From NCBI RefSeq assembly GCF_035621495.1, contig NZ_CP141821.1, forward strand, positions 1,826,760 through 1,890,759: a stretch of DNA of 64,000 bases, in the 5' to 3' direction. Both the position numbers and the translations under genes were made by a program. Numbering within the stretch: the first letter of the stretch is position 1; each line of letters begins with the position of its first letter. The stretch is from Thermococcus sp. SY098 (GTDB lineage: Archaea > Methanobacteriota_B > Thermococci > Thermococcales > Thermococcaceae). Below, piece by piece: positions 13,921-53,074 of the stretch. The notes beneath the pieces were generated by a model. It made no database searches, was not told the DNA's origin, and saw only the letters and a list, made by a program, of their open reading frames with translations.

Positions 13921-14667
13921 GTGAAAGATACAAAGAAGATGTTAGCTGATATTTTGGAGGATTTCTTATTTAAAGAGGAACTGCAGAGACTTCTTGAAGA
14001 AGCAGGATTAAAAAAAGTCAGGAAACAAGAGAGAACTAGCTGAGAGATTAGTGTATGAATCGGATTATGATCCAGCATATTTGTTATCTAGACTAAGAAA
14101 AGACGAGTTATTTGAAGTTTGTGAAACATATTTTGATATTTACCTTCCAAAGTCAGTTACAAAACAAGAATTAATAGAGAGAATATTAGCAGAGTTGTCT
14201 TTACTTCGTGAGGGTTATTCAGAAAAGCAAGAGCCTAAAAGGAAAAAGGAAGCTGTATATGAAAAAACAAAATCTATGAGCACCATAGAACGTGAAGTGT
14301 ATAATGCATTAAGAGAGTTTAAGCCATACAAAGTTGAAAATGAAAAAGACTTAGAGAAACAACTTGTAGTTCATCTTAGGAGTAAGGTAAGCTCGAAAGT
14401 TACTCCTCAAAAAGCTGGGGCATGGCATGGAAACATATATACCCCTGACATTGTAGTAGAAAATATTGCAGTGGAAGTTAAGTTCTTTAACAAAGGTAAA
14501 CGTAGAGATGAATGGGTAGAGCTATTGGTCAGATTATTAGATACCGTATCGAGGGTGGGTATGATTCGGTAATTTTGTTTATTGTTGATGAATCTGGGAT
14601 AGTTCCAGAATATTATAAAGAGTATGAGAAAATTCTCCCTTGGCTAAAGGTTATTGTTCGCAAATAG
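13921..14667 (+). pseudogene. frameshifted PD-(D/E)XK nuclease-like gene with SAP-like domains
   Basis: Three consecutive frames join into one protein of about 248 residues. From GTG 13921 the frame reads to about residue 32 (LLEEAGLKK), then a run of seven A at 14010-14016 requires a one-base shift to continue as SGNKRELAERLVYE; a stop otherwise falls at 14041. The middle frame runs to TAA 14570-14572; a second shift near 14550-14558 is needed to continue as GGYDSVILFIVDESG to the stop at 14665-14667. Two SAP-like helix-turn-helix motifs lie in the first 85 residues; TPDIVVENIAVEVKFF gives the D...ExK nuclease core. Probably decayed, though sequencing error in the A run is possible. Confidence 0.65.
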
Positions 14668-14672
14668 ACATA

Positions 14673-14777
14673 ACATTTAAAAACTCAGACTCTAAACTCA
14701 CCTCGACCAGGCGGGGGAAACCCGCGGGATGTTCCGCTCTGCGGAGAACCACAAACAGCGAAAGCGAGGTGGAAAGA
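14673..14777 (+). promoter_or_regulatory. promoter and multi-hairpin leader of rpl15e
   Basis: CATTTAAAAA at 14673-14683 predicts a start near 14699-14703. The GC-rich RNA beginning there folds on paper into a closed junction: outer stem CACCTCG (14699-14705) with CGAGGTG (14765-14771); hairpin GCGGG/CCCGC (14711-14725); hairpin GTTCCGC/GCGG..AAC (14731-14749) with a two-base bulge; and a small GC-GAAA-GC hairpin (14758-14765). The outer stem contains the L15e Shine-Dalgarno GAGGTGG (14766-14772). The surrounding DNA is AT-rich, so this GC content is itself a sign of selected RNA structure. Confidence 0.65.
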
Positions 14778-15362
14778 ATGGGAATGTACAAATATATTAG
14801 GGAAGCTTGGAAGAGCCCGAAGAAAAGCTATGTTGGACAGCTTTTGAAGGTTAGAATGATTAAGTGGAGAAGAGAGCCAAGCGTTGTTAGGATTGAGAGA
14901 CCAACAAGGCTTGATAGAGCCAGGAGCTTAGGGTATCAGGCAAAGCAGGGTTATGTAATTGTTAGGGTTAGAGTTAGGAGAGGAGGAAGAAAGAGGCCCA
15001 GGTGGAGGGGCGGTAGAAAGCCAAGCAAGATGGGTATGGTCAAGTATTCACCCAAAAAGAGCCTCCAATGGATTGCCGAGGAAAAGGCAGCGAGAAAGTT
15101 CCCCAACCTTGAGGTGCTCAACTCCTACTGGGTTGGCGAAGATGGAATGTACAAGTGGTTTGAGGTTATAATGGTTGACCCACACCATCCAGTCATCAAG
15201 TCTGATCCTAAGATAGCCTGGATTGCAATGAAGGTTCACAAGGGCAGAGTCTTTAGAGGTCTCACAAGCGCAGGTAAGAAGTCAAGAGGACTTAGAAACA
15301 AGGGTAAGGGTGCTGAGAAAGTCAGACCAAGCATCAGAGCAAACAAGGGTAAGGGTAAGTGA
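14778..15362 (+). CDS. rpl15e: 50S ribosomal protein L15e
   Basis: Archaeal/eukaryal large-subunit protein, 194 residues, highly basic. Recognised by [12 protein letters not shown] at the start, [41 protein letters not shown] and the C-terminal [19 protein letters not shown]. The reading frame is open upstream to 14640 through the structured leader, but GAGGTGG at 14766-14772 and the family N terminus fix ATG 14778. First gene of the translation/exosome cluster. Probably autoregulated through its leader, which is an inference. Confidence 0.97.
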
Positions 15363-15534
15363 CTTGCTTTTCTTATTCTCTTTTACCTGGATCAGCCTTT
15401 TTTAACGCAGATTTTTAATAATTTCGCTTTAATTGGTTTAAATTCGTGAATTTAACGATTTTAGGAGAAATGCTTAAATTTCATGAGCGACATATTTTAA
15501 AGTGAGAGAGTGAAAAGTGTTTGAGGTGAGAGCT

Positions 15535-15990
15535 ATGGCAAAGCTTCAAGCTCATAGTGTAAAGATTAGGACATTTATTCATGCAACTGAAGATCCTGAG
15601 AAAGTGCTGGAGGCTTTGGAAACTCTATTTCCGGAGGATTTGTCACCTCAAGATGTAGACTTCGAGATAATTGAAACAGAGGGTTACTTTGGAAACCCGA
15701 TCCTCGTCATGGATGCAGAAATTAAGAGAAGCAAAAATGTAAGAAAATTCCTCGAGAACCTCAAAGCTCTGCTTAGTGAGGAGGACAAAGCCTACCTCAT
15801 GGAACATGCTGAAGAGAAAGTCGATGAGACTGGAACCTTCTACATTCGCTTTGATAAGCAGAGAGCATACTTAGGAGAGGTTAAAGTAACTGAGGGAGAA
15901 GACGTAATACATGTGAGAATTAAGGTCAAAGCTTTTCCAATGAAGAAAGAAAGCGTTGTAAGATCGGTTAAGGAGTGGCTGAGCGAATGA
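15535..15990 (+). CDS. exosome-associated RNA-binding protein (COG1325 type)
   Basis: A 151-residue protein of the archaeal family predicted from genome context to be an exosome subunit or RNA-binding partner; no enzymatic activity is established. Starts [24 protein letters not shown], contains [14 protein letters not shown] and ends in an alpha/beta RNA-binding-like fold. GAGGTGAG at 15523-15530 selects ATG 15535 over the upstream in-frame 15517. Its stop overlaps the start of RNase P component 3 (ATGA), indicating translational coupling with an RNA-processing gene. Confidence 0.85.
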
Positions 15991-16619
15991 AGTTCATTGA
16001 GATGGATATCAGGGATGAGAGAGCTTACGAGTTGGCTGAGGAGTGGTATGATGAGGTTGTCTTTACAAAAAAGCTTCTATTAAACGGCAGTCCAGACTAT
16101 GAAAAACTGAAAGATGAACTCAGAGAGCTCAAGAAAAAATACGGCAAAGTTGCTCTTCTCGTGATTACAAATAAACCCTCACTAATTAGAGAACTCAAAA
16201 ACCGTAATCTTAGGGCCTTAATCTATGTCCAGGGAGGCAATATGAAGATTAACCGATTTGCTCTTGAAATTGGGGTTGATGCCCTCATAAGTCCAGAATT
16301 TGGGAGGAAAGATAACGGATTTGACCATGTTCTTGCGAAAATTGCCGCTAAGAATGATGTTGCAATTGGCTTTTCTATATCTCAGCTTTTGAAGGCAAAT
16401 CTATATGGGAGGGCTAATATTTTGAGATTTATGATGAAGAACTGGCAGCTCGTTGATAAATATAGGGTTCCAAGATTCCTTACATCATCGGCGGAGAGTA
16501 AATGGGAAGTTAGGGCTCCGAGAGATTTAATGAGCCTTGGAGTTGTTATAGGGATGGAGATTTCTCAAGCAAAGGCTTCAGTTGGTTTTTATCCTGAAAG
16601 AATTGTAAAGAGAATTTAA
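15987..16619 (+). CDS. rnp3: ribonuclease P protein component 3 (Rpp30)
   Basis: Protein subunit of archaeal RNase P, which with Pop5 supports pre-tRNA 5' maturation by the catalytic RNA. It is 210 residues with the PHP-like TIM-barrel pattern of Rpp30: [16 protein letters not shown] at the start, [44 protein letters not shown] and a C-terminal [22 protein letters not shown] 15987 overlaps the stop of the upstream gene. Its partner Pop5 is at 18409, beyond an inserted opposite-strand gene. Confidence 0.95.
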
Positions 16620-30703: not shown

Positions 30704-30764
30704 CATTGATGATGAATACGGGGCCACCTGAGTGATGAGGAAATTTCCCCCAATGCTGATATTC
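30704..30764 (+). ncRNA. C/D box sRNA (2'-O-methylation guide), candidate A
   Basis: Box C ATGATGA (30709-30715), guide 30716-30727 (12 bases), box D' CTGA (30728-30731), box C' GTGATGA (30732-30738), guide 30739-30755 (17 bases) and box D CTGA (30756-30759). Box order and spacing are those of archaeal C/D sRNAs, which with L7Ae, Nop5 and fibrillarin direct 2'-O-methylation of the target base paired five positions before D or D'. There is no D'-C' spacer and the second guide region is long. It lies alone between divergent genes, with AACATTTATTAA at 30675-30686 as possible TATA. Confidence 0.7.
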
Positions 30765-47590: not shown

Positions 47591-47666
<76 letters not shown>

Positions 47667-52925: not shown

Positions 52926-52984
52926 GGCCTCAGCTAACCCTCTTTTCTTCATCAATTCAGAGTGGCTAACGATCATCATTGGCT
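52926..52984 (-). ncRNA. C/D box sRNA, candidate B
   Basis: Read on the minus strand: box C ATGATGA (52979-52973), 12-base guide (52972-52961), box D' CTGA (52960-52957), one base, box C' TTGATGA (52955-52949), 15-base guide (52948-52934), box D CTGA (52933-52930), with GCC before box C and GGCC after box D able to close a short terminal stem. It is transcribed away from a shared AT-rich promoter region (52986-53017) toward the dnaG end. Confidence 0.8.
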
Positions 52985-53016: not shown

Positions 53017-53074
53017 TTGGGATGATGTGCGTTTACCGGTCTGAGCTGTGATGATATCGGCACTGTCTGACCTA
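53017..53074 (+). ncRNA. C/D box sRNA, candidate C
   Basis: Box C ATGATGT (53022-53028, last base variant), 12-base guide 53029-53040, box D' CTGA (53041-53044), spacer GCT, box C' GTGATGA (53048-53054), 12-base guide 53055-53066 and box D CTGA (53067-53070), with GG before and CC after. The two 12-base guides with a three-base D'-C' spacer are the ideal archaeal layout. TTTTTAAAG (52990-52998) is a good TATA for it. Its end touches the thymidylate kinase stop on the other strand. Confidence 0.85.

Follow-up and report, generated by a model that had tools for sequence, protein, structure and literature searches.

The closest described system is the eL15-Euryarchaeota ribosomal protein leader, Rfam family RF03144, which Eckert & Weinberg (2020; PMC7247131) described upstream of rpl15e in Euryarchaeota. 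Its likely ligand was predicted to be eL15 because rpl15e is the only gene regulated by it ("Only" in their Table 1); the same authors found available start-site data generally consistent with their leaders and noted that the loop is partly like the bulged-G module at the rRNA site of eL15, a mimicry they call unclear (PMC7247131). A second archaeal case is that of L7Ae from Sulfolobus acidocaldarius, which is thought, with experimental support, to repress its own mRNA through a k-turn at the Shine-Dalgarno (SD) site (PMC5539422). In the literature searched, direct tests of archaeal ribosomal-protein feedback leaders were found for L7Ae only, no binding or expression experiment was found for any eL15 leader, and an earlier paper on a screen for GC-rich ncRNAs in P. 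abyssi does not mention L15. To our knowledge, archaea have few known leaders through which ribosomal proteins exert feedback.

Here we analyse the rpl15e locus in a window of 64,000 nucleotides from Thermococcus sp. SY098. By its sequence, the structured RNA upstream of rpl15e is a copy of the already described family RF03144. An Rfam scan at default thresholds gave no RF03144 report at this leader, and with the threshold lowered the model covers 14711-14755 at its full length with 33.2 bits, 0.5 under the gathering score; four of six congeners score 35.7. The first-pass annotation of this DNA had proposed a leader RNA of L15e that is probably autoregulatory, a prediction now backed by the RF03144 match and the published assignment of eL15 as ligand, and had added that no archaeal L15e leader switch was described, which is wrong in view of RF03144 (Eckert & Weinberg 2020; PMC7247131). 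The leader that it had found independently is real, but it had erred on the outer stem and on novelty. The leader being already known, what is gained here is a correction of its structure and start site and a more sharply defined minimal motif. The features of the locus are as follows.

14675..14682, + strand: TATA box ATTTAAAA, in agreement with the P. furiosus consensus -30(WTTTAAAW)-23
14699..14704, + strand: CACCTC (-6 to -1), 5' strand of the proposed outer stem, most likely part of the promoter and not transcribed
14705, + strand: predicted transcription start G (+1), from the TATA spacing rule and the pyrimidine-purine step
14711..14725, + strand: hairpin H1, GCGGG/CCCGC, with double compensatory changes GC>AU and GC>UA
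14711..14755, + strand: RF03144 match (33.2 bits, E 6.6e-5, gathering score 33.7)
14726..14727, + strand: helix P2, 5' strand GG, partner 14749-14750; does not vary in Thermococcaceae, whereas in other lineages the helix has 3-7 bp and its sequence differs
14728..14732, + strand: internal loop, 5' side GAUGU, a likely protein-binding module; NAUGU in 93 of 94 leaders from several lineages
14733..14745, + strand: hairpin H2, UCCGC/GCGGA; 11 double compensations and no breaks on the rpl15e tree
14746..14748, + strand: internal loop, 3' side GAA, without variation in alignment A1
14749..14750, + strand: helix P2, 3' strand CC, on the same basis as the 5' strand
14758..14765, + strand: mini hairpin GCGAAAGC, 2 bp, seen in the window sequence
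14766..14772, + strand: SD site GAGGTGG, 15 nt 3' of P2
14778..15362, + strand: rpl15e, ribosomal protein eL15, 194 aa (Pfam PF00827, 302 bits; close to solved archaeal eL15 chains)

With the AUG at 14778 and the end of P2 27 nt upstream, the leader lies directly 5' of the gene, a position confirmed in the aligned Thermococcaceae leaders. RF03144 matches with E up to 1 were obtained in 88 of the 115 genomes of the window's phylum, 81 of them over the cut-off; all matches listed in that phylum are from Thermococcaceae, nearly every genome of which was matched. The window copy carries the conserved RF03144 loop sequence AUGU / GAACC...AAA and the helices H1, P2 and H2 with covariation. The GC-rich stretch with two hairpins noticed in the first pass is indeed present as H1 and H2, and the leader region folds moderately better than its shuffles (z -2.25). 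The GAAA-capped mini hairpin is also present, after the 3' strand of P2 and ACAAAC; with 2 bp and absent from most Thermococcaceae, it is not generally conserved and was dropped as a family feature.

Promoters of P. furiosus follow a consensus in which the TATA element WTTTAAAW occupies -30 to -23 and a pyrimidine-purine step occupies -1/+1 (PMC6640164), and start-site papers on T. kodakarensis and T. onnurineus give the same rule; the main text of these three sets of start-site work does not give the start of rpl15e itself. Applied to the window, the spacing rule places -23 at A14682 and +1 at G14705, which is preceded by C14704; transcription most likely starts there, which would give a 5' UTR of 73 nt. 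The distance from TATA to GAC is constant at 27-28 nt in nearly all relatives, and all 81 distinct leaders have a pyrimidine-purine step no more than 1 nt away from the predicted start (CG in 73, TG in 7). The conservation profile runs through BRE, TATA, AA at -10/-9, weakly conserved positions -8 to -2, YG at -1/+1 and GACT.

The conserved structure is found downstream of this start. Across 34 distinct leaders, 99.1% of the cells of H1, P2 and H2 are paired, 15 cells show double changes against 2.9 in shuffles, and the covariation score of 0.130 was reached by none of 500 shuffles, with slid controls at or below 0.041. Parsimony on the rpl15e tree assigns H2 its 11 double compensations without a break. 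These double compensatory changes in aligned sequences support the hairpins H1 and H2 and the helix P2 beyond chance. When leaders from Methanococci and Methanomassiliicoccales were included (94 leaders, collected by a core finder that demanded some pairing, so that the count is biased towards structure), the first pair of H2 was UA, CG, GU, GC or AU and always paired, the first pair of P2 was GC or AU, and the near-invariant internal loop NAUGU/GAA lay between P2 and H2 in 93; the automatic core search had no match in L210-L213 and L246. H1 is missing in four genomes from one sister genus (leaders L021, L027, L029 and L015; genomes G005, G007, G011 and G004), where P2 is longer, CCGG/CCGG in three and CGUGG/CCACG in the fourth. 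Because H1 can be absent while P2 is longer, the constant part is P2 - NAUGU/GAA - H2.

We propose, with a probability of roughly 0.7, that the window leader is an RF03144 copy starting at G14705 and that surplus eL15, when bound to the P2-loop-H2 core, represses its own translation through occlusion. The transcript would carry the 73-nt 5' UTR with H1, followed by P2 - GAUGU/GAA - H2 and, 15 nt further on, by the SD site. When free eL15 exceeds 23S rRNA it would bind the P2-loop-H2 core, the ligand being the one predicted in the literature, and the bound protein would most likely overlap the site at which the 30S subunit loads and thereby repress translation of its own mRNA; no stem closing the SD would be needed. 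Throughout Thermococcaceae, the end of P2 lies 6-16 nt from the SD and 18-28 nt from the AUG, distances that fall within reach of an initiating 30S subunit. In leaders folded from G14705, the predicted pairing of the SD is 0.39 at 37 °C and 0.20 at 80 °C (mean of 81 leaders), and 0.51 and 0.36, respectively, for the window copy; according to these folding models, little SD burial is available to switch.

It is improbable, in our estimate, that the RNA regulates rpl15e in response to a ligand other than eL15, be it another protein, an assembly factor or a small molecule. Such a ligand is suggested by the grounds on which eL15 was assigned, namely that rpl15e is the sole regulated gene (PMC7247131), and by a loop that only partly resembles the rRNA bulged-G module. 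A comparison with 23S rRNA had been called for in the first pass, and a simple scan of the 23S rRNA of this genome for the leader loop motif found no copy; a 12-nt match, CGGGGGAAACCC, is likely due to chance, since it spans the variable loop of H1. Against another ligand stands the occurrence of the motif before rpl15e in distant archaeal lineages, which is what feedback by the encoded protein would lead one to expect.

This occurrence was evaluated beyond Thermococcaceae. RF03144 at E up to 1 matched 11 of the 35 genomes behind the diverse loci, one of them over the cut-off, and 10 of 36 genomes in the phylum of a Methanothermococcus genome (G121); the control genomes of Haloferax volcanii and Methanosarcina acetivorans matched too. 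A search of the 250 nt before rpl15e for a minimal core, consisting of P2 of at least 3 bp, NAUGU, H2 of at least 3 bp and GAA, retrieved 13 of 57 non-Thermococcus rpl15e loci against 0.2 expected (0.0039 per locus, as estimated on 454 kb of background). The core was detected in Methanococci, Methanomassiliicoccales, other Thermoplasmata (among them L094 and L107), DHVE2 and one Methanobacteriaceae genome, where P2 of L102 reads UUUUUG/CAAAAA; the DHVE2 locus L090 has it in a genome without an RF03144 match. Outside Thermococcaceae the core usually lies close upstream of the SD, Methanococci excepted: the SD follows it by a few nucleotides in several Methanomassiliicoccales, other Thermoplasmata and DHVE2, and lies within a few nucleotides of P2 in L090, L094, L105, L106 and L109. 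With even odds, the true family is this smaller module, with a variable P2, NAUGU/GAA, H2 and a dispensable H1, present in several euryarchaeal lineages and partly missed by RF03144, acting by SD occlusion in most and possibly by transcription attenuation in Methanococci.

Occlusion cannot serve as the read-out in every lineage, since some 80 nt separate the core from the start codon in Methanococci. In Methanothermococcus (L058 and L060), this spacing is combined with an A-run and T6 after the core, and the read-out may therefore differ there; as judged from these letters, it could be of the terminator type in place of SD occlusion. These two loci lend some weight to a further alternative, in which the core acts through mRNA stability or through transcription attenuation of the kind that the Methanothermococcus U-tract could allow. 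For the window copy we rate this slightly lower still than a different ligand, because no such U-tract is found between its core and its SD and because the core is near the SD throughout Thermococcaceae.

The first-pass annotation had proposed a different structure, in which an outer stem buries the SD. CACCTCG (14699-14705) is complementary to CGAGGTG (14765-14771), which overlaps the SD GAGGTGG, and to this extent the observation stands; as an RNA feature, the stem does not. A start near 14699, as had been predicted, is at odds with the TATA box (14675-14682), from which G14705 is predicted; starts at 14699 and 14700 would both be too near this box, by 5-6 nt. Given a start at G14705, the 5' strand is mostly untranscribed, six of its seven bases being upstream at weakly conserved positions, and this start lies close to the one that the annotation itself had considered incompatible with its model. 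The covariation analysis of Thermococcales leaders that it had suggested found H1 and H2 compensated, P2 being compensated across lineages; on the rpl15e tree, the outer stem, in a register anchored on the transcription start and the SD, was assigned by parsimony 42 breaks, 26 gains and 3 double compensations. Complementarity was 12.38 in matched leaders against 12.11 ± 0.20 in permuted ones, and 58 of 500 permutations were as high. Counts by alignment columns are kinder to the stem (66.7% of cells paired against 38-46% in slid controls, covariation score equalled by 5 of 500 shuffles) because one group of genera has CACC...GAGGTG in common; within this group, the 5' strand has substitutions of T by A or C for which the SD strand shows no matching change. 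A CCAC/GUGG pairing to the SD from the predicted start was also considered and dropped, as it occurs only with a GGUGG SD and is not conserved. In view of the poor conservation, the permutation result and the breaks on the tree, we judge the outer stem, with the rpl15e start inferred from sequence, to be coincidental, the promoter DNA being rich in pyrimidines and the SD in purines; burial of the SD by this stem is probably wrong. A start near 14699, with a ligand stabilising an outer stem that closes the junction over the SD, is thus very unlikely, even though inclusion of the CACCTCG bases brings predicted SD pairing to 0.99 at 37 °C and 0.93 at 80 °C, 18 leaders of the CACC + GAGGTG group keep the long complementarity and the column counts exceed the slid controls, as breaks of the stem far outnumber its compensations and promoter and SD composition explains the residual complementarity.

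Several other features were recorded in the window. Before the leader, in 14051-14667, an open reading frame stops at 14572 and protein-like sequence continues in another frame to 14667, which suggests a frameshift; the first part had no Pfam match. After rpl15e, genes for an RNA-binding protein (PF01877) and for RNase P p30 (PF01876) at 15532-16619 form an RNA-related cluster. The Rfam scan of the window also located a tRNA at 47591-47663 and the C/D-box sRNAs sR35 (30705-30761, + strand), sR34 (52928-52983, - strand) and sR12 (53020-53071, + strand).

With a sharp minimal motif and a predicted start, the eL15 leader lends itself readily to tests in Thermococcus kodakarensis. The locus also provides a caution, namely that pyrimidine-rich promoter DNA beside a purine-rich SD may mimic an RNA stem.

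With RF03144, the window copy shares its place before rpl15e, the order H1, P2, H2 and the core GGGAUGU...GAACCACAAA; the model has H1 and a 3-bp P2, whereas the minimal core described here also occurs without H1 and with a P2 of 3-7 bp. Regulation by L7Ae has been experimentally tested, whereas that by eL15 is a prediction. What the eL15 leader would share with the L7Ae 5' UTR is an archaeal ribosomal protein acting on a structured element that adjoins the SD of its own mRNA, and the two differ in the protein and in the fold, a k-turn for L7Ae and the NAUGU/GAA internal loop in the eL15 leader.
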